A stretch of DNA of 64,000 nt from Theocolax elegans (taxonomy: Eukaryota; Arthropoda; Insecta; Hymenoptera; Cerocephalidae): NCBI GenBank assembly GCA_026168455.1, contig CM047428.1, forward strand, positions 40,377,513 through 40,441,512. Reading direction: 5' to 3'. The position numbers were made by a program, and so were the translations under genes. This document shows positions 17,965 to 48,955 of the stretch, in pieces. Under the pieces are notes generated by a model. The model was not told the origin of the DNA and made no database searches. It saw nothing but the letters and a program-made list of their open reading frames with translations. Each line of letters begins with the position of its first letter. The first letter of the stretch is position 1.

Positions 17965-18970
17965 TGTGACGTGTCCACTGGGGATTAGGGTGGAGTCACG
18001 GTTAAAACACAAAAAATCAACAACTTAGTTAAAAGAGATTGCAGGTTTAATGCACTTACTGTGCTTTCAAGTATTACACGGCAAAGCAGCGGCTTTGCCG
18101 TTCAAAGTTGCCAGTCACGTTGGCCGCGGTCGCTCGCGTTCGCGCGATTGCTGGCCGTCCCGCACCTAACCACGCGTCGCGCACACACACTTAAAGGAAG
18201 CTGGACTTGGGAGGAAGGAGCACGGCTCACCTGGACGCTCGTCTCCTGGATCCCTCGGACACACACGTAGCCTTTTGAAATAGCGATATGGCGTGGTACA
18301 CGATCGGTGGTCGGTCGCAGTCTCTCGATTATCGGCACGCACGAAGCGAGAGAGTTTCTCCTCTGCGTATTGCGCAGGCGCGCCTACTCTCGCGTCTCGA
18401 GTCGTGCGGCCATGGTTTCGCTGCCTCGACGGAGATGTCGTCGACGACGTTGACTTAGTGGTGCCGGATGGCGATTGAGTAACTGCGGCCCTGCTGAGAA
18501 TACTATCTGCGAGGTAAGCTTTTAAATCGTTCCTTTTTACCTCGATTTTAAGCTAAATCGAGCCCCTCGAGTTTCTTTATTGCAGGTGCCGTATATTGTC
18601 AATACGGGATCTTCGGCTCGGAGTGTCCGCACAGCTGGAGAGGTCATTCCAGGCTGGATGGGACCTGGGGATACAGTACGGGTCATTCCTGGTGCTGGAC
18701 AAGGCATAAGGATGCTGGATCAACGGAGCAGTGTGTGTGTGTGTGCAATTGTGCGCAGTCAGGAGTCGCATCTCCTTTGCTTCGGGTTCTCCTGCTTACT
18801 ACGCACTGTAAGCCTATATCGGTTTCACACATTCGCATATGTGTGTCTATTAGGACTTAATTGGTGTGTATAGCACGCTTACTTCGCATAGTAAGCTTGA
18901 CAGGTGCTATACTATACCTTGTCTCGCTATTTTATTTCTAAGTGACATGTAGTATAACTACAATGTCACA
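17965..18970 (-). repeat. 3' LTR of Gypsy1 (1,006 bp)
   Basis: It matches 28,489-29,524 almost exactly. In element orientation it starts TGTGACATTGTAG and ends GACACGTCACA. It lacks 30 bp present in the other LTR (28,926-28,955 region: GTGCGGCCATGG here). The U3 end folds into a near-perfect hairpin (plus 18,942-18,970, GTGACATGTAGT / ACTACAATGTCAC). GTAAGC near 18,512 and TTTATTGCAG near 18,575 look like splice sites on the plus strand, antisense to the element, and their use is unknown. ORFs read inside it are not genes. Confidence 0.95.
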
Positions 18971-18988
18971 ACTCCCCCCTCCCAAACC
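18971..18988 (-). other. Polypurine tract of Gypsy1
   Basis: On the minus strand GGTTTGGGAGGGGGGAGT abuts the 3' LTR, the expected plus-strand primer of Gypsy-type reverse transcription. It matches the TR-GAG tract at 43,649-43,666 at 16 of 18 positions. Confidence 0.85.
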
Positions 18989-19879
18989 AAAGTTATACCT
19001 TACTTCGATTTAGAATACGCAAGGGGATGCACAATGCACACAGAAGTATGAATACAATACTAGCTATCAAAACGATTCTAGATAGATCCTAGTACGTAAA
19101 AAACTTAACCTAAGATAGCCGGTGCTATCTACAGCGGTGTAAAGTGTAACTGTCTGTGTTGTTTGTGTCGTAAAATAAATTACCTTTTTTTTTCGCATAT
19201 CTTACTATTAAACTTCAACAGAATAACAAAAAAAAATTTTCCAATTGGTTAGTGTAATGGGTTTCTTGAATTCTGGAACACTGGAATCTGGAACAGCTGT
19301 TCTTTAGAGTTAATCTGTGTAACCGTGTAACACGCTGAGTGTGTAATTATTACTTTCCCGATAACTAAATTACTTTATTCGATTCGAATTACGTGTGACT
19401 GGCTTACAAACTCTTATCACGCTCGCTTTCCGACCAATTCCGAAATTCGCGACATTCATAACCCAAACTAACATGAAACAATCATCCCAAAAAAAAATGT
19501 ATTAGAATAGAAAACTTTCATTCATTACTAACCTGGTGAGTTGCTTTCCTCTGTCGAAAGTGGCTTTACATCGAGATTAAATAATGACATGAATTTGACT
19601 ATAATAATGAAACTATTATGAGTAACTAATAGTGAATCAAACACATTATTTGGTTTTCTTAATTAATTCATTTTTTTAACAATTAAAAATTTATTCATTA
19701 TACTTTGTGAAGTTTGTATGTAATTCCAATTTATCAATTAACTATTATACTAAACTACATTGTGTACATATTTTTCTCTATATTCGGGAATGGTGTGGGT
19801 TTTAAGGGAGTAAAATACAAGTCACATTTCAATAGTTTTATCTAATTTAATAAAATTAAAAAAAAAATTTTACATTCCC
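18989..19879 (-). other. 3' noncoding region of Gypsy1
   Basis: AT-rich sequence between the end of ORF3 and the polypurine tract. No reading frame of note and no env-like protein with signal or transmembrane segments. Confidence 0.6.
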
Positions 19880-21025
19880 CTATTTGGGGTGAATCCTCAG
19901 GGCTTGTACCCATTCTTCCTGGCATTCCGGACAGGCCTCAATGGTCGTCCCGGTCCGGCCACATCCGCGGCAAAACTTTATACGTGCCTCCGGACACCTC
20001 TGCCAACTGTGGTTCCTGCTTCCACAGTTCCAGCATCCCTGCCTTCTACGGCCACTTTACGCCGTTGGACGTGGGGCCAGGGTGCTGGACACGGCGAGAT
20101 TTTGGGCCGGGAGCGTCCAGGTTCGCTGGGATCGTCTGGGGGGTGTTAGGGATCTGGTGCTGGATGGTGAGGGTAATTGGGGTGGTGGGGAAATTTTCAG
20201 GGACAAGAGGGATGGGATAGCTGGGGAAACCGGTCCCGTACGGCGTTCTTCGGGAGGTGGGGTGGTTTGACGGGGTGCTGGAGGGGCGTTTTGGATAGGG
20301 GCTAATAGGGATGGGGGCAAACCGGAAAGGGTAAGGGAAGGGGTATACGGGATAGGGATAGGGACAAAATGGACGATGCGCATTGCATGGTCTTGGGAGG
20401 GGTCGTGGTACACTTGGGTAATGGGTCTGGGGAATGCGGGAAGGGGGTCGGGAGATTGCGGCGCAAGGGGTTGGGGACGGGTCACAGGGAATGGTGCTAG
20501 ATGGGAATGGGACTGGGAAGTTGGTGCTGGATGGGGTTGGTGAGATGGTGCTGGAGGGGGCTGTGGTGCTGGATGGGGTTGGGGTTGAGGGACTGGTGCT
20601 GGAGGAGGCGGTGGGTTCACCGGGACCTGCGGTCGCTCGCATTGCGCAGGCGGCTTTCCGTGGCCGACCTCGGCGCCTTGGAGGTCTCTCGCCACCGGCT
20701 CCCTCGTCTGGCTCCTTCCTCTTCCCCGTGGTTGCGGGGGCCTGTGCCGCGGGACGCTTTCGCCGTAGTGGCTCGGCGTCTCCGTCACCTCCGCCCGGTA
20801 CGGCACGTAACCCCGGTACCGATACCCCTCCGGACTCTTCTCCCTCTTCAGAAGCGTCCGTTGAGGCACCGGGGACGGTGGTGCTGGAGGTGTTGCTGGA
20901 GTTGGTAGCGCTGCTACGTTTTGGGGAGGTGGGTAGATCGGCGCCTCGCCCATCAGAGGTCGTCGAACTGCCGACGTTCCGCCTCTTCCTCCCCTTCCTC
21001 GTAGGCTGCTTCGCCGTTGTAACAT
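19880..21025 (-). pseudogene. ORF3 of Gypsy1: Pro-rich protein with C-terminal zinc knuckles, one internal stop
   Basis: An ATG at 21,025 opens a frame different from pol. It gives 322 codons of Arg/Gly- then Pro-rich sequence up to TAA at 20,057-20,059. The same frame continues for 58 codons to TAG at 19,880. That extension reads 'GCWNCGSRNHSWQRC' (C-X2-C-X4-H-X4-C), then 'FCRGCGRTG' and 'ACPECQEEW'. This second zinc cluster lies beyond the end of pol (20,046), so the knuckles there are not explained by pol coding. The layout CWNCG..HSW..CP....FCR.CGR.G is closer to the TR-GAG knuckles than to Gypsy1's own Gag knuckles. Readthrough, a new nonsense mutation or a spliced transcript are all possible. 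It could also be a relic of an older gag 3' end. Confidence 0.6.
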
Positions 21026-24000
21026 CTGGAATAGAAATGGGATTGATATTTACCTTTCGGGGCGGAATGTATCGCTTAATATCCTCTATGGATATTTCAG
21101 TTCTTTTCTTTGTATCGTCATCTTCTACGATATAAACAGTAGGGGATTTAATTTCGACTACTGTTGCTGGACCTACAAATTTCGGAGCCTGTTTGGCTGC
21201 AAAATTTTCTTCTGCAGAAGATTGGACACGATTTAATCTAACTATTTTATCTCCTATCTGGTAAGTAATATCCCTTCTATTCCTATTATAATATTTGGCT
21301 TGCCTAGCAGTGGCTTTATCCATATGATGTTTAACTAAATCGTGAAGAGCTGGAAGTCTCTTCATACGATCTGACCACTTTTCTGAGTCTTCAGGAAGGA
21401 TAGGAATGGGATTTTCGAGGTGCTTTCGGATTAGGATGGATGGTTCCGGATTTCTACCCAAATTCATAAACGCTGGTGTTGTTTTAAGCGACGAGTGAAT
21501 CGTTGTATTTAAAGCGAAACAAAATTCCTTTAAATGCAGATCCCACTCTTTATGATCTTCAGCTAAAAAGCTGTTAATCATAGGCTTTAAATTACGGTTT
21601 ACTCGCTCTACCGGATTCGCTTGGGGTCTATAAGGCGGTGTGGTAGTTTGCTTAATACCGTAAGCATCTAAGCGTTCAGACATTAATTTATTGGCAAATT
21701 CAGTCCCATTATCTGTCAACAAAAACTTAGGGCATCCCCATCGGTTTATGATCAAATCTTCAAAAGCTTGCCATACACTTTTAGCGTCTGCCTTCCTAAG
21801 TGGCTGAATTTCTACGTAACGAGTGAATAAATCTTCAAAAACAATTACGTATCTGAAACCTCGTTTAGATTTTGGCTTCGGGCCCATAATATCGACAGCC
21901 ACAACTTTCCATGGTCCCTCGATATTTCTTTCGCCCATTAGCCCTGCCGGGGGCAATTGGCAACTTTTGTGGATTTGACATTCATGACACGATCGGACAT
22001 AACAAGAGGTATCATAAAAATAACCTGGCCAATAATAATAAGTCGCAAGACGTGCGTAAGTTTTTTCTATGCCTAAATGTCCTGATTGAGGAGTATTATG
22101 GGCTTCGAAAAGAGCTTGGGGTCTGTTTGATGCTGGAAGAACTAATTTCCACGCATCCAAATCAGGGAACAATGGATCGACTAATGGGTTTGGACGATGT
22201 GCGTAAAGAAAACCACTCTCGATTTTAAAATCGGGATACTTAGCTGGAAATTTCCGTACGTTCTCCATTTTTCGTATGTACCATGGATCATCTATGTGAG
22301 TCGGAACTACAGCTGCTACTTCTGACTCTTCCCACGCTCTTGATAAAGCGTCCAGAACTTGATGCAAAGCACCTTTACGATGTACAAATTTGATATCGTA
22401 ATTTTGTAGCGCTGTATTCCATCGTGACAGTCGGCCTGCGGGGTCTTTGAGATTATTTAACCATAAAAGACTGAAATGGTCTGTTATTACGGTAAACTGT
22501 TCTCCTTGAAGATACCCTTTAAGCCTATCTGCTGACCACAGAACCGCTAAACACTCTTTTTCAGTTACAGTGTAATTGCGTTCTGCTTTGGTCATTGTTC
22601 TACTCTCATAGTAGATTGGATGTTCCTCCCCATCAATTACCTGCGTAAGCACACCTGCTATCGCGTAATTGCTTGCGTCCGTCTGCAACGTAAAGGGTAG
22701 GGTGAGATTGGGTCGTGCTAGAATGGGTGCTTGAGTAAGGGATATTTTCAGTTTTTCAAAGGCTGTCTGTTGCTCTGCATCCCAGTGCCAACGAACACCT
22801 TTTCTAGTTAACTGAGTAAGGGGATTTTTTATTTCGGATAGATTCGGAATAAACCGGGAATACCATCCGATCATCCCTAGGAATCTGCGGAGTTGCTTGA
22901 GGTTTTTGGGTGCTGGATATTCGATTACGGGTTTAGTTTTGTCGGGATCAGTACACAGACCATGTTCATTTACAACATAACCAAGATATTTTACTTCGGC
23001 ACAGCAAAATTCTGACTTATCTCGATTAAGTTGTAAATTCACTTCTTTTAACGCCTTCAGTACTTTACTTAACCAGAAAACATGATCTTTAAACGTTTGG
23101 GTCACAATAATTATATCGTTTAAGTACACGAAAACATGTGGTTCCCAATCTGGTTTGATTAGTTTTTCCATGATCTTTTGGAAAGTAGCTGGAGCGTTTG
23201 TTAAGCCGTAGGGCATTCTCTTGAAGTGGTGTAGGCCTCGTCCCGGTATGCCAAATGCAGTTATTTCTTTACTGCCTTCTTCCAGTAAAATCTGATGATA
23301 AGCTTGCGACAAATCTAATTTTGAAATATACGTTGCTCCTCTTAACTTATCTAGTATATCATCCATATTTTTCAATGGATAAGCAAATCTTTTTGTTACT
23401 TTATTGACCTGCCGATAGTCAATACAAAATCGGTATTTGCCGTCAGCTTTTGGGACTATTACTGGGCAACTACACCAAGGACTCTCTGATGGTTCTATTA
23501 TGTCTTCTTTTAACATACGGTCTACCTCTTCTTGCCCTGCTTTCAACATCTTTGCTGAGTACTTCCTCATCCTTTGTCTTATAGGCTCGTGACCCTGGAC
23601 ATCTATTTTGTGGTAAGCCAAAGTTGTCGCACCAAGTGTTTTCGGGGTTTTCGGGATAAGACTGTCTAGGACCTTTTTTATTTCTTTTTCCTCTTCTTCT
23701 GACGCTTGACGAAGGCCATCTATACTAGCTAGTGCTGGAAGGTAGCTGGGATCTTGCCCATAGGGATAAAACTGATGAACCTCCCCTGCTGGTGTCCACC
23801 ATGTGTCATTTCCGAAGTCTATCTTGAGTTCAAATAACCGTTTGAAATCAATTCCCAAGATACACTCGTACTGCAGTCCGTCTGCTACTCGGAAAGGTAA
23901 GGTTTTCTCAATTCCATCGATACTAATCGTTACGTCTAATTTTCCTTCCACAGAAACTGATATCCCATTGGCTACGCTTACGGCGCCCTTGCAAGGTTTA

Positions 24001-24554
24001 AATTTCCCGCTAAACTGTTTTCCTAACCCTTTTCCTATATAGGAATAAACAGATCCGGCGTCTAAAAGTCCTATCATCTTTCTTCCGTTTAGTTCTATCG
24101 AGAAAAACAACCTAGGCTCAAGCTTACCTAACGGATGCCTTTGGATGAGTGAATCTGGTGATAAGACAGCGGTTGCAAACATATTTTCTACTACGCTGTT
24201 ATTCGACAGTTTAACTATTTTTACCGCTGGTGCTGGAGAGGAATTTTTCCTTTTCTTTTTGGGTGCTGGATGGGAATTTTCTCTTTTCTTTTGGGGTGCT
24301 GGATGGGAATTTTTTCTTTTCTTTTGGGGTGCTGGATGGGAATTTTCTTGTTTTTTGTATGGTGCTGGATGGGCTTTTCCGGTATTCATAATTGGTGCTG
24401 GAGAGGAAATTTTTAATCTTTTTGGATTCATGGAACCTGTTTTCTTTCTCTTATTTGGATTTGCTGGAAATTTGGTAGTTTTGGAGTCTACTATAACGTT
24501 TTCTACCAAGGAGGACACAACGACTCCTACTGGTTCCTCTGCGAGTCGTTTCCC
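20046..24554 (-). CDS. pol: Gypsy1 Pol (protease, RT, RNase H, integrase), 1,490+ residues
   Basis: Residues counted from the GTG at 24,518. The frame opens a little upstream, so entry by -1 frameshift at 24,548-24,554 is likely. Residues 48-95 hold 11-residue HPAPQKKRKNS repeats. The protease motif at 153 is DAG followed by 'LGIDF' near 221 (family usually D-T/S-G). RT covers about 310-560, with LDLSQAYHQ at 401 and YLND at 465-468: the Asn at 467 (codon AAC, 23,118-23,120) replaces the first catalytic Asp. RNase H spans 610-725 (TDAS, EKE, TDH, LDALSR). The integrase HHCC is about 807-847, and D876, D936 and E971 are present. After about 1,160 a Ser/Thr/Pro-rich, GC-rich tail carries an AT-hook-like RRRGRPRK at 1,281. 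Open throughout, but RT is probably inactive. Confidence 0.95.
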   Translation of the reverse strand, partial: GKRLAEEPVGVVVSSLVENVIVDSKTTKFPANPNKRKKTGSMNPKRLKISSPAPIMNTGKAHPAPYKKQENSHPAPQKKRKNSHPAPQKKRENSHPAPKKKRKNSSPAPAVKIVKLSNNSVVENMFATAVLSPDSLIQRHPLGKLEPRLFFSIELNGRKMIGLLDAGSVYSYIGKGLGKQFSGKFKPCKGAVSVANGISVSVEGKLDVTISIDGIEKTLPFRVADGLQYECILGIDFKRLFELKIDFGNDTWWTPAGEVHQFYPYGQDPSYLPALASIDGLRQASEEEEKEIKKVLDSLIPKTPKTLGATTLAYHKIDVQGHEPIRQRMRKYSAKMLKAGQEEVDRMLKEDIIEPSESPWCSCPVIVPKADGKYRFCIDYRQVNKVTKRFAYPLKNMDDILDKLRGATYISKLDLSQAYHQILLEEGSKEITAFGIPGRGLHHFKRMPYGLTNAPATFQKIMEKLIKPDWEPHVFVYLNDIIIVTQTFKDHVFWLSKVLKALKEVNLQLNRDKSEFCCAEVKYLGYVVNEHGLCTDPDKTKPVIEYPAPKNLKQLRRFLGMIGWYSRFIPNLSEIKNPLTQLTRKGVRWHWDAEQQTAFEKLKISLTQAPILARPNLTLPFTLQTDASNYAIAGVLTQVIDGEEHPIYYESRTMTKAERNYTVTEKECLAVLWSADRLKGYLQGEQFTVITDHFSLLWLNNLKDPAGRLSRWNTALQNYDIKFVHRKGALHQVLDALSRAWEESEVAAVVPTHIDDPWYIRKMENVRKFPAKYPDFKIESGFLYAHRPNPLVDPLFPDLDAWKLVLPASNRPQALFEAHNTPQSGHLGIEKTYARLATYYYWPGYFYDTSCYVRSCHECQIHKSCQLPPAGLMGERNIEGPWKVVAVDIMGPKPKSKRGFRYVIVFEDLFTRYVEIQPLRKADAKSVWQAFEDLIINRWGCPKFLLTDNGTEFANKLMSERLDAYGIKQTTTPPYRPQANPVERVNRNLKPMINSFLAEDHKEWDLHLKEFCFALNTTIHSSLKTTPAFMNLGRNPEPSILIRKHLENPIPILPEDSEKWSDRMKRLPALHDLVKHHMDKATARQAKYYNRNRRDITYQIGDKIVRLNRVQSSAEENFAAKQAPKFVGPATVVEIKSPTVYIVEDDDTKKRTEISIEDIKRYIPPRKVNINPISIPDVTTAKQPTRKGRKRRNVGSSTTSDGRGADLPTSPKRSSATNSSNTSSTTVPGASTDASEEGEESGGVSVPGLRAVPGGGDGDAEPLRRKRPAAQAPATTGKRKEPDEGAGGERPPRRRGRPRKAACAMRATAGPGEPTASSSTSPSTPTPSSTTAPSSTISPTPSSTNFPVPFPSSTIPCDPSPTPCAAISRPPSRIPQTHYPSVPRPLPRPCNAHRPFCPYPYPVYPFPYPFRFAPIPISPYPKRPSSTPSNHPTSRRTPYGTGFPSYPIPLVPENFPTTPITLTIQHQIPNTPQTIPANLDAPGPKSRRVQHPGPTSNGVKWP
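24229..24402 (-). repeat. 33-bp tandem repeats in the Pol N-terminus
   Basis: GGTGCTGGA recurs exactly every 33 bp at 24,229, 24,262, 24,295, 24,328, 24,361 and 24,394. Each unit encodes an 11-residue Lys-rich block of the form HPAPQKKRKNS. The middle units are the most alike, as expected for expansion by unequal exchange or template switching. Confidence 0.9.
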
Positions 24555-26986
24555 GCCGGTCTAGGAACTTTACACGTTGGACAATTTCGCTTCAATGTGT
24601 TTTTCCTACCACACCCTCTGCAAGAATTGTCTGGGCAATCATAGGACCCATGACCTGTGATGCCGCATGTGTGGCAAGTGTCTGTTTCCTTATTCCTTGT
24701 TTTGCCATTATTTTCCGTAGTGGGGCTATCTGTCCCGTTTCCCTGTTTTCCATTATTACCATTTCCAGCTGGGGCCTGTTTGTTCTTCTCATTTGGCCCT
24801 TTTCCATTTTGATTTGTTCCGTTTCGCTTTTTATTGTAAGATTTTCTATGATTTCCTTTGGGGTTATACGACGGGGGGTTTGAGGGTGCTGGAGGTTGCT
24901 GTAAGGCGGCAGCAGGTGCCTCTTCGTGCGTAGTGCCTGCATCACTGGCATTCCCAGCGATTGCAGCAGTTTTACCAGACTTTTTTATTTTTACTGGTTC
25001 GTACGCGGAGTTGAAGAGTTGCTCGTCGTCTTCTACTGGCGGAGGACGGTAGAGTGTGTCTTGGCGTTTGCGTGCTTCTTCCTTCTTTCCTAGCAACTGC
25101 AATTCCAAAAACGATGAAAATTGGTCTTTGTCGATTCTTCGCCTATAATCTGGATGTAGATTATCGTATGTGATCGCTAATTGTTCGCCAAGGGGCATTG
25201 GAGGCTTCAACTGATCCAATAAGTTGCGGAATTTCGAAAGATATGTCGAAATATCTTCTTGCGGTCCCTGCGTTCTTACCATTATCCTTTTTCTTACTTG
25301 ATATTGTAAGTCTTCTTTACAATATTGGAGTCTGAATGCTTGTTGAAAGTCTTCCAATATCAACCAATTGCGATGTTCTCTGCGAAACCAATACCAGACA
25401 TCTTCATCCAGTACTACTGGCAATGACCTAGTGATGTCATCCATAGTCAATTGGTATGAGCGTGCACATTCCGTCAAATTTACTAGGAATGACTCTGGAT
25501 CGTTCCTTTTATCACCTTTAAATTCAATATGCCATTGTTTTAGAATTTCGCTGACACGTTTTTCTCTTTGGAAGGTCGAATTATCCAAAAGTGATCCTTC
25601 TCGCCTGGTGCTTGACTGGGGGTAGGGTTGGGAATAATTGTAGGGATATTGTCTAAAATTATTTTGTGATGGTGCTGGAGGAATATTATATTGGGATTGT
25701 GGCATAACTGGAGGCTGTCGTTCGAGGTTAAGATTAGATGAACCAGTATAATTTCGTGGGAATTGCTGGACGGTTCTAGGATTTTCCTGTTGCTGGAAGC
25801 AATTGTTTTGGGTGTAAGAAGGCTGCTGGATCGGTTCACGCTGATCGTAATACTGTCGTTCATTTCCTATTCGGTACCTCGTTTCGTTCGAACTACTCGT
25901 TGCAGGTATTGGTCTTTCACAATTCCTCGTGAATTCATCACTAAATCTCACTCCTTGTGTCCTATTACCCGCCTGAGTGTAGATTGGAAATGTTCTATTC
26001 TCCAGATCTTCCTCCGTTATCTGTGGAACATGTGATTCATGGCTTTGAACATTTCGCGGAAGATTGATTGTATTTGGATTTCTCGGCCTCGGGGTTGGTG
26101 GTGATCTCATGTTGTCTGTGTTTGTGTTAGTTGCCACAAACTGTCTAATTTGCAAATACGATGTTTGATCATATCCACCTGCATTTCCCGAATTAAAACT
26201 CGCACTTAAAAATTGTCTATCTTGAAATCTAAATTGAACCTGATCTGCCGCGTTTTGTTCATTTTGTCTATGTTCTATCACATTTCCGTGTGCTGGATGT
26301 TGGGTGGATTGCGCGCATGGGAGATTAATACTATTACTATGTAAATTATAATTATTATCTGGGTGCTGGAGGGGTTCTGACGTTGAAGTGGGCAATGGGA
26401 AGTTCAAATGTAATCTAACATTAGCATTTGTCGTTACCACATTTTCTCCGCCAATCAGTGCTGTCGAATTCTGCGAATTGCTGAAAGTTAACGGATCTGC
26501 ATATGGTCCCAATGTTTGACCTGTCGGCAATTGCCCATGAATACGTAGGTAAGCACCACTGTGCACTTCCATGTATTCCCTTGATACCGTAGGATTTCCC
26601 GCTGTAATTCCCCTACTTACTGGCCGCATGACGGACGGATTCCTCCATGTGCCAGCTAAGTAGTTTTCCCCTTCCGAGGTTAAATTCAAATTTCTATTAC
26701 CGGGTATATCCAATGGAACGAAATTCGCCTCGTCTACTTCAGGATCCCAATATGCCGCCGCTAACCCGAAACATTTCCGTGTTTCATATCTTTCAACTCG
26801 ATTTCTTATATTATACATGGAATCTGTGGCGTTTAAATTTTTTAGATCGGCATATTGTAGTATTTCTTGGTTACTACAATGAAAAACATTTTGCCGTATC
26901 CGCTGGATGCCCTCTTCCAACGATAACCTAGTATAATCCTCCTCTGCCAACGTATGCAGAGTCAAACTACCATTTAGTTCTGACAT
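24527..26986 (-). CDS. gag: Gypsy1 Gag, 819 residues
   Basis: Starts at a true ATG (26,986). The N-terminal domain includes 'RVERYETRKCFG', 'YWDPEVDEAN' and later 'QLPTGQTLGPYADPLTFSN', close to the N-terminus of the TR-GAG protein. A long Asn/Gln/Pro-rich middle follows. The capsid-type domain (about residues 490-650) contains 'FKGDKRNDPESFLVNL', 'WYWFRREHRNW', 'YLSKFRNLLDQL' and 'LHPDYRRRI', typical of Ty3/Gypsy Gag. The C-terminus has a C-X2-C-X4-H-X4-C knuckle (CHTCGITGHGSYDC, from about 771) and a second Cys cluster (CRGCGRK...CPTC). It packages the element RNA into particles in the cytoplasm. The stop at 24,527 lies 19 nt past the slippery site that leads into pol. Confidence 0.95.
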   Translation of the reverse strand: MSELNGSLTLHTLAEEDYTRLSLEEGIQRIRQNVFHCSNQEILQYADLKNLNATDSMYNIRNRVERYETRKCFGLAAAYWDPEVDEANFVPLDIPGNRNLNLTSEGENYLAGTWRNPSVMRPVSRGITAGNPTVSREYMEVHSGAYLRIHGQLPTGQTLGPYADPLTFSNSQNSTALIGGENVVTTNANVRLHLNFPLPTSTSEPLQHPDNNYNLHSNSINLPCAQSTQHPAHGNVIEHRQNEQNAADQVQFRFQDRQFLSASFNSGNAGGYDQTSYLQIRQFVATNTNTDNMRSPPTPRPRNPNTINLPRNVQSHESHVPQITEEDLENRTFPIYTQAGNRTQGVRFSDEFTRNCERPIPATSSSNETRYRIGNERQYYDQREPIQQPSYTQNNCFQQQENPRTVQQFPRNYTGSSNLNLERQPPVMPQSQYNIPPAPSQNNFRQYPYNYSQPYPQSSTRREGSLLDNSTFQREKRVSEILKQWHIEFKGDKRNDPESFLVNLTECARSYQLTMDDITRSLPVVLDEDVWYWFRREHRNWLILEDFQQAFRLQYCKEDLQYQVRKRIMVRTQGPQEDISTYLSKFRNLLDQLKPPMPLGEQLAITYDNLHPDYRRRIDKDQFSSFLELQLLGKKEEARKRQDTLYRPPPVEDDEQLFNSAYEPVKIKKSGKTAAIAGNASDAGTTHEEAPAAALQQPPAPSNPPSYNPKGNHRKSYNKKRNGTNQNGKGPNEKNKQAPAGNGNNGKQGNGTDSPTTENNGKTRNKETDTCHTCGITGHGSYDCPDNSCRGCGRKNTLKRNCPTCKVPRPAGNDSQRNQ
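24548..24554 (-). promoter_or_regulatory. Candidate -1 ribosomal frameshift site GGGAAAC
   Basis: In the gag frame the codons are GCG-GGA-AAC, so the heptamer G-GGA-AAC fits X-XXY-YYZ. A -1 slip enters the pol frame as GGG-AAA-CGA. A TAG in the pol frame just upstream (about 24,561-24,563) prevents entry from further 5', and the gag stop follows 19 nt downstream. This fixes the overlap to a short window holding the only classical slippery heptamer I see. A downstream stimulatory structure was not worked out. Confidence 0.75.
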
Positions 26987-28469
26987 TTTGAGGATTTCTT
27001 AGGACACGTAAATTAATTCACGCTATTTTGTCAAAAAAAAAATTTTAATACTAAGTGCAGCTCAATACAACTTGTAGTCAATCACAAAAAAAATTAAATT
27101 TATTTCTAAACAGCTCAATTGTAGCTTAATTTCTTAAAAAAAAAATTTTGACTTAATAATTAATTAGAATTATGCAAGCATGAAATTATCAAATTGCTTT
27201 AATTTTAAGCAAACTAATTTATGAGCAAGCAAATAAAAATAATAACAAAACTAGATTTTAGTTATAAAGCATTTAAAATTATATCACACACTAACAAGTC
27301 AGTATTGTTAATTTAAGCGCACAAAATGCCAAAAGCAAAAAAAAATTGTGAAATTATTTTTGTCGATACTGTTATGACCAAATTTATCAACAAAAACTAA
27401 TTAAGTACCTACGCAAGAATTCACAACAACTAACTTGAGTGAAAGGCAAGCGTATAAGTGAATAATTTACAAGCCAAGCTTGAAATATTTAAGCGTATTG
27501 GGTATATATGGGTATATATGGTGCTGGATTAGGTTACAATGGTGCTAGATGGGTTACGACTCTTAAAAAGACATATATACAATGCAAATAAATAGTGAAA
27601 TGTTACTTGTTAATGCAATTTCAAAATTAATAAGCGTACAGCAATTAAATATTACTATCTTAACACTGTATAACTGTGTATACACTTGGTTTGCTATCGT
27701 TCTCAATATTTGAAGGGTCCTATTTTGTTCAAAAATAAATTAAATTGAATATAATTTTGGTGGCTATAGGTTCTAATTTACTCAAAGAATGCTTATTTAT
27801 AATAAAAAACTCAATTTAATTGCAAACAAAAATTTTCACAAAAATTACTTGTTGAGTAAATCAAGTAACTGCGATATTTGCTATTTGTCCCTTGAATTTA
27901 TTACTACAGGGTCCAATATTAACTTTGACTGCTAATTTTTAACAATAATTAATTGTAATAAACTTAAAAAAACATTTTCCTTACTTTTCTTTTTCTAAGT
28001 TGAGAACGTAGCTTGAAATGACAATTTACTAAGTACTTACTCGTACTCCAAAATTCTCATACTCATTTAACTCTAAATATAATTTAATTTCACAAACTTC
28101 AAAAAGCCTTTAAACAAAATCAAATATTTTGGAGCTAGAAGGGAATAAACGAATTGTAAAATTTATATTTTTAAAGGGAAAAATAAAATTATTGCTGTTA
28201 TATGCAAAAAAGAACAATATGCAGAAAAAAATTTCAAACCAAATAATATGGAATAGACTCACCGAATTTTGCAGATAATTCACTAATATCAACAATTTCT
28301 ATTAACCAAACTTGAATTTATTACAAAAAATCAAAATCTGGTTACACGTGGTCGAAATTAAAATGGCCGTCCAAAACCACTTTCGACGCTTCCTCTGTGT
28401 GTGCGCAATATGGCGGATTAATACTTGAAAAAAAATCCCGAAGTCCACGATCACAATTTTTTTTCGGAT
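26987..28469 (-). other. Long 5' leader of Gypsy1
   Basis: AT-rich untranslated leader of about 1.5 kb between the primer site and gag. It contains one exact GGTGCTGGA (27,520) and one GGTGCTAGA (27,541). These are isolated in otherwise AT-rich DNA, next to a repeated GGTATATATG. No ORF of note. Confidence 0.7.
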
Positions 28470-28488
28470 CAAAAAGTCACGGTCGCCA
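28470..28488 (-). other. Primer-binding site of Gypsy1
   Basis: Reading from the 5' LTR on the minus strand, TGGCGACCGTGACTTTTTG follows the LTR end directly. The TGG start matches a tRNA CCA end, as for Gypsy-type priming. I cannot name the tRNA with confidence. It differs from the site in TR-GAG. Confidence 0.7.
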
Positions 28489-29524
28489 TGTGACGTGTCC
28501 ACTGGGGATTAAGGTGGAGTCACGGTTAAAACACAAAAAATCAACAACTTAGTTAAAAGAGATTGCAGGTTTAATGCACTTACTGTGCTTTCAAGTATTA
28601 CACGGCAAAGCAGCGGCTTTGCCGTTCAAAGTTGCCAGTCACGTTGGCCGCGGTCGCTCGCGTTCGCGCGATTGCTGGCCGTCCCGCACCTAACCACGCG
28701 TCGCGCACACACACTTAAAGGAAGCTGGACTTGGGAGGAAGGAGCACGGCTCACCTGGACGCTCGTCTCCTGGATCCCTCGGACACACACGTAGCCTTTT
28801 GAAATAGCGATATGGCGTGGTACACGATCGGTGGTCGGTCGCAGTCTCTCGATTATCGGCACGCACGAAGCGAGAGAGTTTCTCCTCTGCGTATTGCGCA
28901 GGCGCGCCTACTCTCGCGTCTCGAGTCGTGCGCGCTCGGCTCGGTTCGTACAGGCCGCTCGGGCCATGGTTTCGCTGCCTCGACGGAGATGTCGTCGACG
29001 ACGTTGACTTAGTGGTGCCGGATGGCGATTGAGTAACTGCGGCCCTGCTGAGAATACTATCTGCGAGGTAAGCTTTTAAATCGTTCCTTTTTACCTCGAT
29101 TTTAAGCTAAATCGAGCCCCTCGAGTTTCTTTATTGCAGGTGCCGTATATTGTCAATACGGGATCTTCGGCTCGGAGTGTCCGCACAGCTGGAGAGGTCA
29201 TTCCAGGCTGGATGGGACCTGGGGATACAGTACGGGTCATTCCTGGTGCTGGACAAGGCATAAGGATGCTGGATCAACGGAGCAGTGTGTGTGTGTGTGC
29301 AATTGTGCGCAGTCAGGAGTCGCATCTCCTTTGCTTCGGGTTCTCCTGCTTACTACGCACTGTAAGCCTATATCGGTTTCACACATTCGCATATGTGTGT
29401 CTATTAGGACTTAATTGGTGTGTATAGCACGCTTACTTCGCATAGTAAGCTTGACAGGTGCTATACTATACCTTGTCTCGCTATTTTATTTCTAAGTGAC
29501 ATGTAGTATAACTACAATGTCACA
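28489..29524 (-). repeat. 5' LTR of Gypsy1 (1,036 bp)
   Basis: Same sequence as 17,965-18,970 except for about 30 extra GC-rich bases near 28,926-28,955 (CGCTCGGCTCGGTTCG...GGCCGCTCGG) and one substitution. The copy boundary is confirmed by ATAT on the outer side (29,525). It should contain the promoter; I did not find a convincing TATA box placement. Confidence 0.95.
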
Positions 29525-37671: not shown

Positions 37672-38578
37672 CGCTATTTCACGTCAAGTGGTACGATGAA
37701 AATTTTAAATCGCTCCAAAATTTGAAAATAGGCTGTAAATATCTTCCAGAAGATAGAAAAAAATTTTAGGTGTTAAAAATAATTTGCCTGAGAGTTATTC
37801 CACCATAAAAAATGGAAATTTTTCAATTTTTTAGGAAAATTTCTATTTTTAAAGCCATTTATCTCAAAATCTATTGATTTTTTTGAAAAAACATTACAAA
37901 CAACTTTTGTTTAAACTAATCTTTAGAACTTATCTACCTGGGTTACAATTCTTAATTTTAAATTCTCGAAGAGATAGAACGTCCGAGAATATTGAATATA
38001 AAAAAAAGGCGTTCAAAAGATCACATTTTTCGAGAGCTTTCGAATGGCTTAGGTTAGATTATTGACCAAGATCGCTGGTGTAACCTAATAAAATCACTAA
38101 TTTTCATGTATTTTAGGGCATAACTTACAACAGCGGTCTTAGCCAATAATCTAACCCAAGCCATTCGAAAGCTCTCGAGAAATGTGATCTTTTGAGCGGT
38201 GTTAGATCAAAATCGATTGTGGCGTGGTCGCCTTTTTTTGATATTCAATATTTTCAGGCGTTCTATCTCTTCGAGAATTTAAAATTAAGAATTGTAACCC
38301 AGGTAGATAAGTTCTAAAGATTATTTTAAACAAAAGTTGTTTGTAATGTTTTTTTCAAAAAATCAATAGATTTTGAGATAAATGGCTTTAAAAATAGAAA
38401 TTTTCCTAAAAAATTGAAAAATTTCCATTTTTTATGGTGGAATAACTCTCAGGCAAATTATTTTTCACACCTAAAATTTTTTTTCTATTTTCTGGAAGAT
38501 ATTTACAGCCTATTTTCAAATTTTGGAGCGATTTAAAATTTTCATCGTATCACTTGACGTAAAATAGTGCATATATAT
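37672..38578. repeat. Foldback element P3, arms about 405-445 bp
   Basis: The left arm (37,672-38,076, from GCGCTATTTCACGTCAAG) and right arm (38,132-38,578, ending CTTGACGTAAAATAGTGC) are near-perfect reverse complements around a 55-bp spacer. A related single arm lies at 5,051-5,565. AT tracts flank both sides. The right end coincides with the insertion point of TR-GAG, which sits in the AT tract directly after it. No protein is encoded. The family resembles foldback-type DNA transposons or hairpin-forming MITEs. Confidence 0.8.
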
Positions 38579-39421
38579 TGTGACAATGTGCTTTGCACAT
38601 GTCAAGTAACGAGCTATCGAACCCACAACGAACACCTACCTACCCATATATAATTCCCTACACCTACCTACCCGCACAGTAAATAAGCCCTGCCTACCCA
38701 CCAAGACTAAAAACCCAGTTCCAACCCATGCCGCGCGCACGAGCGCCGGTGAGAAGTAGCACGAGGATCCCTAACTTCAACCAGCATGCAGCTGTAAGGG
38801 ATTGAGCTAAGGAATAAAGACACATTGGGAGAGAATGCCCAGCGGTCGCGGGAGATCAGCTGAGCCACTTCAATACGCGCGATCGCGGTCCGTGCGACCG
38901 ACGCACGATCGCGCCGCACTTGGCCGCCGAAAACGAGCTACGCGCATGCGCGTAGGCCGAACCACGGCTCTCGCGAGCTACGAGAGCCAGAGCTCTACGG
39001 ACGGTCGACTCGACTACACCGGACGAAATAGCGTGTGTGGCCATTGTGTGCGAGAGAAAGAGAGAGATAGAGATTAGCAGTTCCCGACCAAGTGTCCAGG
39101 ATACTCCGCAAAGGTTGGTGTGGTTATTACCTCTCTCTGCCGACGGTACCGCCGTGTACCCTAGGAAGTGCGTGCGAGCATCCCGTCCGTCCCATCCTTC
39201 CCCTTCCCCTCCCCTACAGCGAACCGGGATAGAAGCAGCGGAGCACGGCTCCAAGTAGTGAACGATAACCCGCGAGTTATCGTACTAGTTGTCGCGTAGT
39301 AGCGCGGCTGGCGCCCACCCTTAGTCATTTATTTATATTAGTTTTAATAAATATCTATTTTATTAATAAGTATTTGCTGACCCTCATTAACCTGCACCCT
39401 GATCCCCAGTGCAGCGTCACA
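38579..39421 (+). repeat. 5' LTR of TR-GAG (843 bp)
   Basis: Starts TGTGACAATGTGC and ends GTGCAGCGTCACA. Bases 38,580-38,605 form a hairpin, TGACA-A-TGTGC / GCACA-TGTCA, with one bulged A. Matches 43,667-44,509 over the full length by eye. A GGAATAAAGACAC near 38,811 and TTTAATAAATATC near 39,344 are possible processing or promoter elements. ORFs inside are repeat sequence. Confidence 0.95.
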
Positions 39422-39422
39422 T

Positions 39423-39437
39423 TGGCGCCCAACGTGG
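39423..39437 (+). other. Primer-binding site of TR-GAG (tRNA-Lys type)
   Basis: One base after the LTR, TGGCGCCCAACGTGG fits the 3' end of insect tRNA-Lys as I remember it. It then diverges. This differs from the Gypsy1 primer site, so the two elements share ends and polypurine tract but not the primer. Confidence 0.75.
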
Positions 39438-40798
39438 CTTGTTTTAAGGGATCTAGTTAATTAATAATTTTGCAAAAGTGGCGTATATATATTGTGTGTT
39501 CTTTTATAGTTAAGAGCGAGGAAATAAAAATATTGTGAGCGTCGAAGCGCGACGCAAATAAGCGGCCATATTGCCCTTCCATTCCTTTTCCTCAGCAAGC
39601 TCGCACACACCGGAAGAACCGGTCGGCCATTTTGACGGCCATTTTGAATATTATATTAATTGAGCACGTGCACTGAAATAATAATTTTGTTTTTCTTTCT
39701 CTTAAAATATTATTTGCACTGCTTTTCATACTTGGTTATGTATAGTTGTTTTTTTTTGTGGGTACGCTGGTTAATAAAAATATAAATAATTCATTTTCCC
39801 TCTCCTTCTAACCCATACAGCAATATTAACCCATACAGCTATATTAACCGAGTATTCATGACATTTTTTTTGTAAGTGCTTCAATAAGAAAATAATATTT
39901 TATTAATTTTCTTTTAAAATTACATTTGCATTTTATAATTATAATAATAATTTAAGCTGCTTTGAGCAATATTAAAATTTTTTTTTAAGTATTATAATTT
40001 ACTTGGTGACACATATTAATATATTAATGCTATTTAATATCCCTACTGCTATTATCACGTTTGATTAAATTGGTTTTCTGTTGTTTATATACAATTAATG
40101 CTTAGTGAATTAAATCACACATTTTGCTAGTTATTTATTGTTAGCTGAATAAATAATAATAATTAAAATTTGCTTAACCTGCTATACCCATTACAACAAA
40201 AATTTAATTTCTCCCTCATAGCTTCCCATAATAATAGTTATAAAAATAATACTGCATAATTTTTGTTTATTATTATTTGCTGCCTGCCTAACCCAGTGTA
40301 TATATTATTTATATAAGCATAATTTGCACGTCCCTTGCACATTTACTCCAATACTGATTGATTGTAATATTATTAATATTAAATATTTAAGGAATATTTT
40401 AGTGTGTAGTAAAAGCTGTATATATTAATTTCCCTGAATAATAAGCTGTATAAGATACAAAATAATAATTGAACCCATATATATATACATATTTCCCGCT
40501 GTATTTATTTGCTATACTGCCCAGCCGATAATAAAGCAAGCTTGTTTAATTTTTTTTTGCTGTTGTGGATTGCTTAGTGGAAGTGAATTTAATTTAATTA
40601 GCTTAGCGTGAAAATTATTTTTTCTTTCTTTCATTGGTATTTTATTTTTTTTTTTGGACTTTTGCTTGGCATGTTTTATTTAAGTTAAGTATAATTAAAC
40701 AAGAGCTAAGATATTTCACGGCAATCGAGCTAAAAAGAGCTATAAATAAAATAATTATTTAAGTATTTAATACAAATAAGCTGCAAAAATTAATCAAA
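39438..40798 (+). other. Leader of TR-GAG
   Basis: AT-rich 1.36-kb leader without an ORF. It holds five exact ATACAGC/GCTGTAT words (39,815; 39,833; 40,415; 40,445; 40,498), part of a set of 12 in the internal region. GC content drops sharply after about 39,650. Confidence 0.7.
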
Positions 40799-42853
40799 AT
40801 GTCTCACAACGGTGATGACCTGGATTTGATTTTGGGAGAAGATTTATCGGTATTACAACCAGCAGTAGGTGCCGGTGTAATAAGACGCAGCATTAATAAT
40901 ACCAGTGATGGTAGAATCTCGGTATACGCGAGCAAAGTCGGAATAAACATAGACGCAGATAGCAAAATTATTAGAGATAGGTTAGCTAGGTACGAAATTA
41001 GACGTAATTTCGGACCATCGTCTGCTGACTGGAATGCAGCAGTAGACGAGGCTAACCCGATTATTGATACAGATTTATCCCTTACGCAATCGGAAAGAGG
41101 AAATATTCCCACTATCGCTATAGATACAGCCCCAGAAAGAAGCAGTAAAGCAAGACGGATGCTGTACATTCAATTGCCAACCGGACAATCGAGAGGACAG
41201 TATCGAGATCCAATTTCCATAAGTAATGAGAATTTATTATCATTACCAGATATGGAAAATGGAACGGAAATGCAATCGGCTGTAAGGGAGAACAGCAACG
41301 CGAGAGAAAATATGCAGCGGTTAAATATTGAAAATTTAAGGAGAAGCAGCGCAGAAATTCGTCCTCAGGCACAATCTACAGCATATAGATTGAGTCTACC
41401 GTCACCAGTATGCGATAATTCGATGATGGAATTAACGCATACAGTCCCAAGCTTAACAACGACGCAGTTGAGCATAAATTCGACTTCCTATTACCCCATC
41501 CACACATTAGCCCCTTCATCTCCCACAAACCCAGACCTCATAGATAATCCATTTACCCAATATACAGCTCCAGTTACCACATACAGTACCAATATTTATA
41601 CAGATACCCGACCTAGATCGACCCAAACTATCCAACCCTCAGCTTTTCGTCCAGTAAGCACAAGCCCCTTTTCCCCTATAGCACTCGTACCTAGAACAGT
41701 AAGCCGAGCAAATACGCCACAGCACAGCAATATAGAACCCGAATTAGCGACCCAGGAGTCAAGAGTCAATCAGGCACGCGGAAACAAACATAACCCCACA
41801 AGCAGCACACAGCTGAGCAATGTACATAGGAATGTACAGAGTGTCCATTGGGAAGACGATGGAGTTACAGAACCCAACGTCCCAAAAGAAAAGAGACAAT
41901 ATAAGGAAAAAGAGCTCGAAAATAGATACGATGAACAATTTAGACGATTGGAGCAGCAAATAGAGCAAATGCAGCAATTATACAGCAAATTAATAGAAAT
42001 ACACAGCAATCAGCAAAATAACGAGCAGCAAACTAGACAGCAAAGCAGATCGCCAGTGCACCAGGAAAGCAACGAAACGTACTCAATCCCAGCTAACCCA
42101 CGCATACAGCAGCAACAAAGTACGTTTAATCCAGCATTCAGGTATACCCGTAAATCAGCAGCAGTTTCCTCAGAGCAGAGGACAGATATTGGAGTACCTG
42201 CAAAGTCTATAGCACTCATAGCTAGCAACCCACAAAAGAAAATACAGCACCAGTACCCATGGAAGCCGAACAGCCCTCAAGCAGCAAGGGAATATGCAGC
42301 ACCTCCCAAGCAAGAGCCTAAGCAGCGGTACAGCGAAGCTGTAAAGAATAATAAATCCAGCAGTTATTGGCAGCGAACACAAAGTAATGAGCAAAGGGCT
42401 GAATCACCCAAAAAGCAGAAATTCAAGCTAAATAAAGTCAGCACGCCAAACTACGTAGAGCAAAAGCCAATTTACCCAAGAAAATTTAAAGAACCGCAAC
42501 CATCCGCCCTCACGACTCTACCATCCCTTATGTCCCAGCCAGTACAGCCCCCTACAACCCTCCCCTCTCTCATGGACCTCCCCGGCACCTCTACGCAGTG
42601 TGCCGCAGCGGGGACAATCCTAAGGACGAGCGGAAGTATCCCGGCAGAAGCACGTATGTCCCGCCCCAACCCGAGCAAATGTCGCCCGGGATGTTGGAAT
42701 TGCGGGGGACTGGGACATAGCTGGAGGATCTGCCCTTCTTCAAACGCAGTTTTCTGCAGAAACTGCGGGAGGAAGGGAGTATTCTCTAAAAATTGTTCCC
42801 GCTGCTCAGACAGCTATTGGGAAATGCAGAGGAAAATGGGAGGGAGGAAATAA
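40799..42853 (+). CDS. gag: Gag-like protein without a capsid domain, 684 residues
   Basis: Starts at a true ATG in good context (AAAATGT). The N-terminal domain has 'RDRLARYEIRRNFGPSSADW', 'AVDEANPI' and 'QLPTGQSRGQYRDPISISN', aligning block by block with Gypsy1 Gag (RYE-R-FG-W-VDEAN; QLPTGQ-G-Y-DP-SN). A Ser/Thr/Pro-rich middle follows, then a Gln/Glu-rich coiled coil at about 362-415. A Gln-rich basic stretch and zinc knuckles at 632-670 complete it: CWNCGGLGHSWRIC, then FCRNCGRKG and CSRC. The capsid-type domain of Gypsy1 Gag (FKGD...WYWFRR...LHPDY) is absent. The frame is fully open, so it probably retained function until recently. It may bind element RNA and join particles built by another element's Gag. 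Confidence 0.9.
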   Translation: MSHNGDDLDLILGEDLSVLQPAVGAGVIRRSINNTSDGRISVYASKVGINIDADSKIIRDRLARYEIRRNFGPSSADWNAAVDEANPIIDTDLSLTQSERGNIPTIAIDTAPERSSKARRMLYIQLPTGQSRGQYRDPISISNENLLSLPDMENGTEMQSAVRENSNARENMQRLNIENLRRSSAEIRPQAQSTAYRLSLPSPVCDNSMMELTHTVPSLTTTQLSINSTSYYPIHTLAPSSPTNPDLIDNPFTQYTAPVTTYSTNIYTDTRPRSTQTIQPSAFRPVSTSPFSPIALVPRTVSRANTPQHSNIEPELATQESRVNQARGNKHNPTSSTQLSNVHRNVQSVHWEDDGVTEPNVPKEKRQYKEKELENRYDEQFRRLEQQIEQMQQLYSKLIEIHSNQQNNEQQTRQQSRSPVHQESNETYSIPANPRIQQQQSTFNPAFRYTRKSAAVSSEQRTDIGVPAKSIALIASNPQKKIQHQYPWKPNSPQAAREYAAPPKQEPKQRYSEAVKNNKSSSYWQRTQSNEQRAESPKKQKFKLNKVSTPNYVEQKPIYPRKFKEPQPSALTTLPSLMSQPVQPPTTLPSLMDLPGTSTQCAAAGTILRTSGSIPAEARMSRPNPSKCRPGCWNCGGLGHSWRICPSSNAVFCRNCGRKGVFSKNCSRCSDSYWEMQRKMGGRK

Positions 42854-43648
42854 ATCTCCTCCTATACAGCTTCCCAAAACATATTCCCCCACATACACTT
42901 CCCGTACAAGCAACGAGTTAAAAGGATAAAATTTTTTTTTGTTTTATAAAAATAAAGGTTTCTATATAACGCAATCCATGTAGTATAATTATTAAGACCC
43001 CCAACCCAAAATGGCAAATTTTCCCAAGCAATAAGGGTGGTGATTATAAAGCAGAGCAAATAAGCAAATAATTTAAATCATATTTAATGAAACGGTAATT
43101 GACACAAAGAGTTCAAAACGAGGAACTCACAAGCAGCAGAAGGTAATAATTCACCACACCTTATTAATTTTCTTTTTGTATTTTATAATAACTTACATAA
43201 TAATTTGTATAACAGTATGAGTATGACTGCCATCATGTAAGTATGAGGTATGAGCGTATCGCGAGTAGGGATAGAGCTCTCAAACAAAAGCGAATATTCT
43301 ATATGATTATGTATATTTTATGTATTGGGGCCAGTCGTCGTTATAGTGTAATTAATTTTAAATTATTTAAAAGCAGCTAAAAGTTATACACCATACAGCG
43401 CGTATACATACACAGATTTCCAGCCAAGCAGCTAGTCAAGGAGACTATACACTTATACCCCGTACCAATAGCACCGGCTATTTGGATATTTATTAAGTAA
43501 GCAAGCGTAATTACCCCCACCAACTTTAGCATCATATAAGCATAGGAAATTTGAAGCAAAATAGTAATTAGCAGCATTGGTTATATTTTTTTTTTAGCTT
43601 AGCATTAATGTTAGCATTTTATTGAAATTACGACTTCCGCGTAATTTC
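42854..43648 (+). other. 3' noncoding region of TR-GAG
   Basis: AT-rich, no pol remnants in any frame that I can see. It contains ATACAGC at 42,864 and 43,393. Confidence 0.7.
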
Positions 43649-43666
43649 GGTTTGGTGGGGGGGAGT
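43649..43666 (+). other. Polypurine tract of TR-GAG
   Basis: GGTTTGGTGGGGGGGAGT directly before the 3' LTR. It differs from the Gypsy1 tract at two of 18 positions. Confidence 0.9.
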
Positions 43667-44509
43667 TGTGACAATGTGCTTTGCACATGTCAAGTAACGA
43701 GCTATCGAACCCACAACGAACACCTACCTACCCATATATAATTCCCTACACCTACCTACCCGCACAGTAAATAAGCCCTGCCTACCCACCAAGACTAAAA
43801 ACCCAGTTCCAACCCATGCCGCGCGCACGAGCGCCGGTGAGAAGTAGCACGAGGATCCCTAACTTCAACCAGCATGCAGCTGTAAGGGATTGAGCTAAGG
43901 AATAAAGACACATTGGGAGAGAATGCCCAGCGGTCGCGGGAGATCAGCTGAGCCACTTCAATACGCGCGATCGCGGTCCGTGCGACCGACGCACGATCGC
44001 GCCGCACTTGGCCGCCGAAAACGAGCTACGCGCATGCGCGTAGGCCGAACCACGGCTCTCGCGAGCTACGAGAGCCAGAGCTCTACGGACGGTCGACTCG
44101 ACTACACCGGACGAAATAGCGTGTGTGGCCATTGTGTGCGAGAGAAAGAGAGAGATAGAGATTAGCAGTTCCCGACCAAGTGTCCAGGATACTCCGCAAA
44201 GGTTGGTGTGGTTATTACCTCTCTCTGCCGACGGTACCGCCGTGTACCCTAGGAAGTGCGTGCGAGCATCCCGTCCGTCCCATCCTTCCCCTTCCCCTCC
44301 CCTACAGCGAACCGGGATAGAAGCAGCGGAGCACGGCTCCAAGTAGTGAACGATAACCCGCGAGTTATCGTACTAGTTGTCGCGTAGTAGCGCGGCTGGC
44401 GCCCACCCTTAGTCATTTATTTATATTAGTTTTAATAAATATCTATTTTATTAATAAGTATTTGCTGACCCTCATTAACCTGCACCCTGATCCCCAGTGC
44501 AGCGTCACA
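43667..44509 (+). repeat. 3' LTR of TR-GAG (843 bp)
   Basis: Same length and, by eye, same sequence as 38,579-39,421. Followed by ATAT and a longer (AT)n run. Confidence 0.95.
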
Positions 44510-48845: not shown

Positions 48846-48870
48846 TTTAGACGTACTTGGTACGGCATCT

Positions 48871-48887
48871 GCCCCCCCCCCCCCCCT
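48871..48887. repeat. C16 homopolymer
   Basis: A run of about 16 C between gag and pol of Gypsy3 (poly-G on the coding strand). It is prone to length variation and may have caused loss of the gag-pol frame. Confidence 0.9.
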
Positions 48888-48955
48888 GAACTGTACTTCT
48901 CGGCAACGAGTTTGTACGGTTCATGTTATGCACACCATCGACAACTACCTTCTCC

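Follow-up and report, generated by a model that had tools for sequence, protein, structure and literature searches.

The window analysed here is a stretch of 64,000 nucleotides from Theocolax elegans (GenBank assembly GCA_026168455.1, contig CM047428.1, positions 40,377,513 to 40,441,512), and it contains a long terminal repeat (LTR) retrotransposon, here called element A, at positions 17965 to 29524. Element A is read along the minus strand, in the order 5' LTR, primer site, leader, gag, pol, 3' region and 3' LTR. The 5' LTR (28489 to 29524) adjoins a primer binding site, TGGCGACCGTGAC (28476 to 28488), which is recognised from its sequence and resembles the tRNA-Arg site of mdg1/412. An AT-rich leader (26987 to 28488) precedes the gag open reading frame (ORF) of 819 amino acids (24527 to 26986), with a CCHC zinc knuckle and a zinc ribbon, and the pol ORF of 1461 amino acids (20046 to 24431), with reverse transcriptase (RT), RNase H and integrase. 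A tandem array of 33-bp repeats at 24229 to 24402 encodes PAP repeats, and its copy number differs among genomic copies. The pol tail is overlapped by a proline-rich ORF on the minus strand (21049 to 20060), the P-rich part of a third ORF (ORF3), and an ORF3-type module of CCHC knuckle and zinc ribbon lies in the frame of the P-rich ORF, past a stop codon (19886 to 20056). The 3' LTR (17965 to 18970) was identified from direct repeats; its boundaries are TGTGAC...GTCACA, with ATAT on both sides. The Pfam matches RVT_1, RT_RNaseH, Integrase_H2C2 and rve follow in this order in one LTR-flanked pol ORF, placing the element in the Ty3/gypsy group. One substitution and a 30-base gap separate the two LTRs, a near identity which suggests that the element is young. 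Neither a pattern scan nor tblastn found relatives of pol or gag in public viral contigs. The region of the pol tail and ORF3 overlap (20001 to 21135) is GC-rich, with 63% in 20001 to 21000 compared with 42% for the element, and its opposite strand holds an open frame of 233 codons too.

All 21 copies of the 9-mer GGTGCTGGA in the window lie on the plus strand and within element A, and neither strand of the 64 kb contains a further copy. A preliminary description of the locus had listed these 21 copies, together with two copies of GGTGCTAGA at 20493 and 27541, and all positions and strands are correct. In 100 dinucleotide shuffles of the window the mean count was 0.19 and the maximum 1, so that none reached 21. 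On the sense strand the word reads TCCAGCACC, with the core TCCAGC(ACC). It is located in the LTRs (18691 and 29245, with the one-base variant GGTGCCGGA at 29014), the leader (27520, besides the GGTGCTAGA copy at 27541), gag (24885, 25671 and 26362), the array (six words), pol between the RT and RNase H matches (22909 to 22917, reading YPAPKN) and the P-rich part of ORF3 (eight words, 20081 to 20880). The array had been described as holding six copies and the remaining copies as isolated; the former is right, but two of the remaining copies, 18691 and 29245, are one site duplicated in the two LTRs. Counted with one LTR, the element has 20 copies in 12 clusters when matches up to 40 bp apart are merged, and the word is its commonest 9-mer, above poly-A words.

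The 9-mer belongs to a larger one-stranded core. GCTGGA, the reverse of sense TCCAGC, is found 37 times on the plus and twice on the minus strand of the one-LTR element (expected 2.3), and one-mismatch words of GGTGCTGGA are distributed 13 to 2 between the strands. TCCAGC is the top 6-mer separately in pol (13/0, sense/antisense here and below), gag (8/1) and the LTR (5/0), and the ORF3/pol tail is led by other registers of the word (AGCACC 9/0, then CAGCAC and TCCAGC with 8/0 each), so that some register tops four of the six element parts; in the leader and in the 3' untranslated region (UTR), TCCAGC is not the top 6-mer. The noncoding parts contain words as well, with 6/1 in the LTR (expected 1.23) and, for TCNAGC, 5/0 in the leader (0.58). 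The spacing is not regular (coefficients of variation 1.13 and 0.91).

Codon bias, low-complexity tracts in the proteins or biased mutation might produce such a pattern as a by-product, and the array and the proline/serine-rich tail indeed contain 14 of the 21 9-mers. Pro-Ala-Pro was considered as a protein-level explanation, since it fits the array, two gag sites, the RT site and, in the ORF3 frame, most tail sites. We compared the counts with synonymous-codon shuffles, performed globally or within 100 or 50 codons. The pol tail has 8 words against 1.4 to 2.4 in the shuffles, a count reached in 0, 0 and 1 of 2000, respectively, and gag has 3 against 0.08 to 0.45, reached in 0, 1 and 11 of 2000. 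Local composition does lift the expectation, and whole pol has 15 words against 5.5 in shuffles within 50 codons. The lone RT word was reached in 191 of 2000 shuffles, so single isolated sites are not significant alone. Pro-Ala-Pro is ruled out as the explanation, both by these shuffles and by the gag word at 26362, which reads Gln-His, and the leader and LTR words, none of which encodes it. The preliminary description had stated that the word is read in all three frames of pol. This is true of the open pol frame, but the reading frames of the tail are ambiguous because the P-rich ORF overlaps it, and most tail words encode Pro-Ala-Pro there. Its claim that selection on protein is insufficient is upheld by the shuffles, which rarely or never reproduce the word in gag or the pol tail, and by the leader and LTR words. 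Selection thus acts on the word as a nucleotide sequence too.

For comparison, we took pieces of related elements from the same genome (658 Mb), mostly reading one copy per family; the families are named A to K, and G2 and G3 are further elements inside the window. GGTGCTGGA is absent from both strands of all 31 pieces of families B to K. Several of these gypsy families each carry their own short word, in tens of copies and almost always on one strand. Family C has TCNAGC (76/10, expected 6.0), D has AGCAGC (63/2, expected 8.1), and the weaker family B has TTCCCC (23/1, expected 5.5), whereas G2 has AACCCA (13/0, expected 2.9) and AAnnAGC (36/7, expected 13.9); for these four, matches were at least 15 bases apart. 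CGCCGG is found in I (31/0, expected 3.9) and J (22/0, expected 2.9), where the overlapping GCCnGA (35/2) has the top score. Family K has TCGAGT (36/2, expected 4.4) and ATCGAG (31/1, expected 5.4), a word we write as (A/T)TCGAG(T), and its top score belongs to ATnGAG (60/5). Element G2 (38578 to 44491, plus strand) has an LTR pair, with AACCCA at 15/0 and AGCAGC at 14/2, and a single long ORF with a Gag-like start and an ORF3-type zinc module at its end; no pol-like open stretch of at least 130 codons is listed inside it. The preliminary description had held that absence of the word from related copies would speak against a function. Taken literally, the word is absent, but this does not refute a function, because most families have words of their own.

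The words were found by scanning many patterns, and simulations of the scores repeat the same scan. The best strand-word scores are 9.7 for A, 13.3 for C, 17.2 for D, 5.8 for B and 5.3 for G2, values that none of 40 local simulations attained, and 9.3, 7.0 and 11.2 for I, J and K, which were scored without simulations. Antisense rows of the strand counts simply mirror the sense rows and did not serve as a control. Under a third-order Markov null, A scores 8.6 against a simulated maximum of 6.0. Further checks on the scan come from repetition in separate element parts, synonymous nulls and a cross-family matrix. Family C is additionally represented by C2 (L055, 99% identical to C in pol), which entered only the top-word, synonymous-null and pol-alignment comparisons, and for B, piece L040 (5' LTR and flank, not the whole gag) was used in early counts and later replaced by L056.

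None of 300 synonymous shuffles matched the count of the own-family word in pol of the families A, C, D, I, J and K, nor, J excepted, in gag of the same families (TCGAGT for K), nor in ORF3 of I. For C, TCNAGC counts are 24 against 4.6 in pol and 18 against 3.9 in gag, and for D, AGCAGC counts are 10 against 1.9 and 40 against 12.6; CGCCGG is at 7 against 1.8 in pol of both I and J, and ATCGAG is at 14 against 3.7 in pol of K (0/300 in all cases). Counts were reached in 1 of 300 shuffles for J gag, 1 for B pol, 55 for B gag and 36 for ATCGAG in K gag. Synonymous codon choice is thus biased towards the words. Among 101 combinations of a piece with a foreign word, six were reached by at most 16 of 300 shuffles, close to the chance expectation of about five. 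These were CGCCGG in pol of D (14), AGCAGC in gag of E (14), TTCCCC in ORF3 of K (1) and, for ATCGAG, pol of A (16) and gag of F (8) and J (7). The noncoding parts are enriched too, with 5/0 in part of the LTR (expected 0.26) and 11/2 in the 3' UTR (0.79) of C; 9/0 in the LTR (0.74), 5/0 in the leader (0.35) and 17/0 on the 3' side (1.36, including the last pol codons) of D; 6/0 in the LTR (0.38) and 1/0 in the leader (0.28) of B; 5/0 in the leader of I (0.22); and, for TCGAGT in K, 10/1 at the 5' (0.43) and 9/0 at the 3' side (0.80), the LTR border being unmapped. In coding as in noncoding DNA, the word-by-family matrix is nearly diagonal. In the aligned pol of A and C, 5 sites are shared of 11 and 24, respectively, and this small overlap indicates that sites are gained and lost.

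The one-strand word is not a feature of every gypsy lineage of this genome. Elements E and F, gypsy copies of another group, each with an LTR pair, have no dominant word: the best scores, 3.0 and 3.3, were reached in 8 and 7 of 40 simulations, and TCNAGC is strand-balanced in both (14/12 in E, 8/11 in F), with AGNAGC at 15/9 in E and 14/4 in F. Element H is 97% identical to E in pol, and we count the two as one lineage. It has no comparable word (TCNAGC 11/13, AGNAGC 16/11; best scores, without simulations, 4.1 for TGGnnTA in the whole and 4.2 for CTnCGA in the 3' piece), and since no LTRs were found for it, its pieces include flanking DNA; none were found for K either. The degraded gypsy element G3 (46700 to 51800, minus strand) scores 2.3 and has no dominant word, and the same holds for four host blocks (2.2 to 3.0). 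The lack of a dominant word in E, F and the host blocks, the noncoding enrichment and the failure of the synonymous nulls in gag and pol of A, C, D, I, J and K make a by-product origin highly improbable.

Amino acid identity in pol is 68 to 81% among A to D, 64 to 97% among I to K (I and J, at 97%, being treated as one lineage) and 47 to 50% between these groups. B and D are 81% identical, yet their words differ. The words could serve a host RNA factor acting in export of unspliced RNA, suppression of splicing, RNA stability or escape from small-RNA silencing, and such a factor would account for the restriction to one strand and the spread over coding and noncoding RNA. However, the related families of a single host use no fewer than five different words, and words differ even in pairs as close as B and D, and we consider this quite unlikely. 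Family specificity within one host points instead to a reader encoded by the element. The preliminary description had also suggested an insulator-like role or a host zinc-finger site, and this is not supported: the words are restricted to one strand, spread through coding sequence and different from family to family within one genome, which disfavours any single host factor. The Su(Hw) sites of Drosophila gypsy form one cluster in the untranslated leader and are bound by a host protein. Both cases involve a repeated protein site in a gypsy-group element, putative here, but the 21 sites of element A extend over LTR, leader, gag, pol and tail, and the words are family-specific.

The restriction to one strand suggests that the words act in RNA, or in one strand of the complementary DNA (cDNA). 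As an alternative, they might be double-stranded DNA sites for a regulator encoded by the element, either ORF3 or another product, similar to the VANC proteins, which bind motifs accumulated in VANDAL transposons of Arabidopsis and undo silencing, as described in the available part of that report (PMC5735166). The evolutionary pattern is the same there, with short motifs that differ among related families, are partly tandem and are proposed to coevolve with an element-encoded binder (PMC5735166, in part), and our near-diagonal matrix has this family specificity. Yet the VANC21 motifs are noncoding sites bound as double-stranded DNA in DNA transposons, according to the same part of the report (PMC5735166), whereas the words described here, although also present in noncoding DNA, are enriched throughout gag and pol coding sequence and mostly confined to one strand (46/4 in A, 76/10 in C, 63/2 in D, 36/2 in K and 31/0 in I). 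A double-stranded DNA function thus appears unlikely, even with ORF3 as an additional zinc protein in most word families.

The zinc modules are the candidate readers. In A, B, C, D, I, J and K, the end of Gag carries, or is followed by, a CCHC knuckle with a CX2CX9CX2C ribbon behind it. There are two knuckles in I, J and K; those of the K copy lie in an open stretch of 130 codons behind a gag stretch of 671 codons. No CCHC motif was found in any sense frame of the pieces of E, F and H; F and H have the ribbon only, and E has neither. A knuckle-ribbon pair after pol, in ORF3, is found in five of the seven word families, namely A (past the stop), B, C, I and K, and the G2 ORF terminates in the same pair. 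In B and C, these modules are in open stretches of 334 and 181 codons downstream of pol. The D and J copies that were read have words and no zinc pair after pol, which counts against ORF3 as the general binder, on double-stranded DNA or otherwise, and leaves Gag as the candidate reader common to all word families. A and C, which share the TCNAGC core, have near-identical ORF3 knuckles (CWNCGxRNHSWxxC). A homologue search with ORF3 of B gave 875 candidates, none at an E value of 1e-3, and no Pfam family was above the cut-off in three ORF3 pieces.

Further copies of family A were compared through 31 aligned LTRs, the two of the window and 29 others from the best 40 of 688 candidates. The site at 29245 is an exact GGTGCTGGA in 29 of 31, and the site at 29014, a one-base variant in the window, is exact in 21 of the 29 others. 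Antisense to the element, the LTRs contain GAGGTAAGC ... TTGCAGGTG, an intron-like pair spanning 29065 to 29142 (and 18511 to 18588), whose two members are exact in 28 and 29 of the 31 LTRs. In predicted RNA structures, the A words are more unpaired than their anagrams (p 2e-4), and those of D slightly so (p 0.003).

Seven deleted derivatives of A retain the leader, gag to about 26352 and the 3' UTR, except that L046 lacks part of the leader and L051 has nearly all of gag. They contain 2 to 6 exact 9-mers in the internal part, which for L050 includes part of an LTR, so the words survive in derivatives, but in smaller numbers. In at least five of the seven, a word common to gag and the 33-bp array (26362 and an array word such as 24394) forms the joint between the 5' part of gag and the array, as read directly in L045, L046 and L050 and from overlapping alignments in L047 and L048; L051 has normal gag at this position. 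The foreign middle of L045 contains a tandem repeat of roughly 74 bp. The joints are relevant to the idea of a role for the words in reverse transcription, where they would act on single-stranded cDNA in nucleocapsid binding, pausing or strand transfer, through the G-containing antisense word. Zinc knuckles often prefer G, which is present in the antisense words GGTGCTGGA and GGGGAA. Deletion from word to word is, however, as expected of any direct repeat, and a cDNA function gives no reason for family-specific words; we regard it as very unlikely.

We favour the reading that the words form a family-specific, dispersed RNA recognition code which is read by the zinc modules of the element itself and probably serves packaging, and we give this a probability of about 0.5. 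The word would act in the genomic RNA, and its spread across coding and noncoding RNA suggests many weak sites which act together and would jointly mark the RNA as self. The CCHC and ribbon modules of the Gag nucleocapsid, and of ORF3 where present, would bind the words and allow the right RNA to be assembled into particles. Selective packaging, or ribonucleoprotein assembly of the element's own RNA, is the function that we consider most likely, with roughly even confidence; a packaging signal was among the options of the preliminary description and is the one that we infer here. If the specificity of the reader drifts, words would be replaced along the element, resulting in a different word for each family. 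Somewhat more tentatively, each family may thus possess a private code, kept by synonymous choice and read by modules of Gag and the third ORF, in which word and reader change together and families do not package each other's RNA.

Dispersed signals of this kind have been proposed for single-stranded RNA viruses such as MS2, where multiple packaging signals act together (PMC6281560, in the part available). In both cases a short motif recurs at many places along the genomic RNA, here a single motif on the strand that corresponds to this RNA, and the reader is an assembly protein, which would be Gag in our case. In the same portion of that source (PMC6281560), the viral motif is presented in stem-loops, whereas ours appears to be a linear word without consistent loop context, and it belongs to LTR retrotransposons and changes from family to family. 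The nucleocapsid of Ty3 Gag, with one CCHC finger, is needed for packaging of genomic RNA, according to the accessible part of another report (PMC4974528), and the Gag proteins described here have a CCHC finger with a putative packaging role. That part of the text names no dispersed word for Ty1 or Ty3, and the terms "packaging signal" and "dispersed" occur in it zero times (PMC4974528). Among the matches listed in the open-licence literature, none describes words that are specific to a family and confined to one strand of an LTR retrotransposon.

Several observations weigh against an RNA code read by the element. The support described here comes from sequence analysis, and the words may instead have a reader of double-stranded DNA that depends on orientation. 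Conservation and spacing, to which the preliminary description had looked, add little: copies of A vary slightly less at word sites (gag P 0.019, LTR P 0.077, no effect in the leader), and these sites are irregularly spaced. This conservation test was corrected for changes private to the window, which otherwise count against non-word sites, and excluded L002, L007 and L009 as repeats of others and the B, C and D pieces as other families. Predicted accessibility is not raised for the words of B and C. The 3' UTR of A has no words on either strand (0/0), the leader of C has 4 antisense beside 8 sense words (expected 0.36), and the A derivatives carry 3 to 5 antisense GCTAGA, the reverse of TCTAGC, mostly in the foreign middle. 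Family B is the weakest, with one TTCCCC in its gag, and in ORF3 of K the words were reached in 33 (TCGAGT) and 15 (ATCGAG) of 300 shuffles. Since the tetramers of the word are themselves part of the third-order Markov null, B (4.7 against 4.8) and D (13.9 against 19.0) stay within it, and C exceeds it only narrowly (4.5 against 4.2). F, although treated as a family without a word, has AGNAGC at 10/0 in its pol. G3 has two CCHC knuckles and a ribbon without a word, although as a decayed element we count it as a weak counterexample, and the ORF3 part of the proposed reader is missing from D and J as noted above.

Elsewhere in the window, a tandem repeat of 11 bp/33 bp (ATATTGGCAAT) lies between G2 and G3 at 45999 to 46290, and a 109-bp satellite of about 26 copies occupies 61178 to 64000, reaching the window end.

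How the Gag of an LTR retrotransposon picks its own RNA among the RNAs of the cell and of competing elements is an open question. If the words are indeed a recognition code, RNA self-recognition would become directly testable, with natural pairs of reader and word for at least five words. The code would impose an added constraint on the synonymous sites of such elements, and it would account for the coexistence of related families in one genome.

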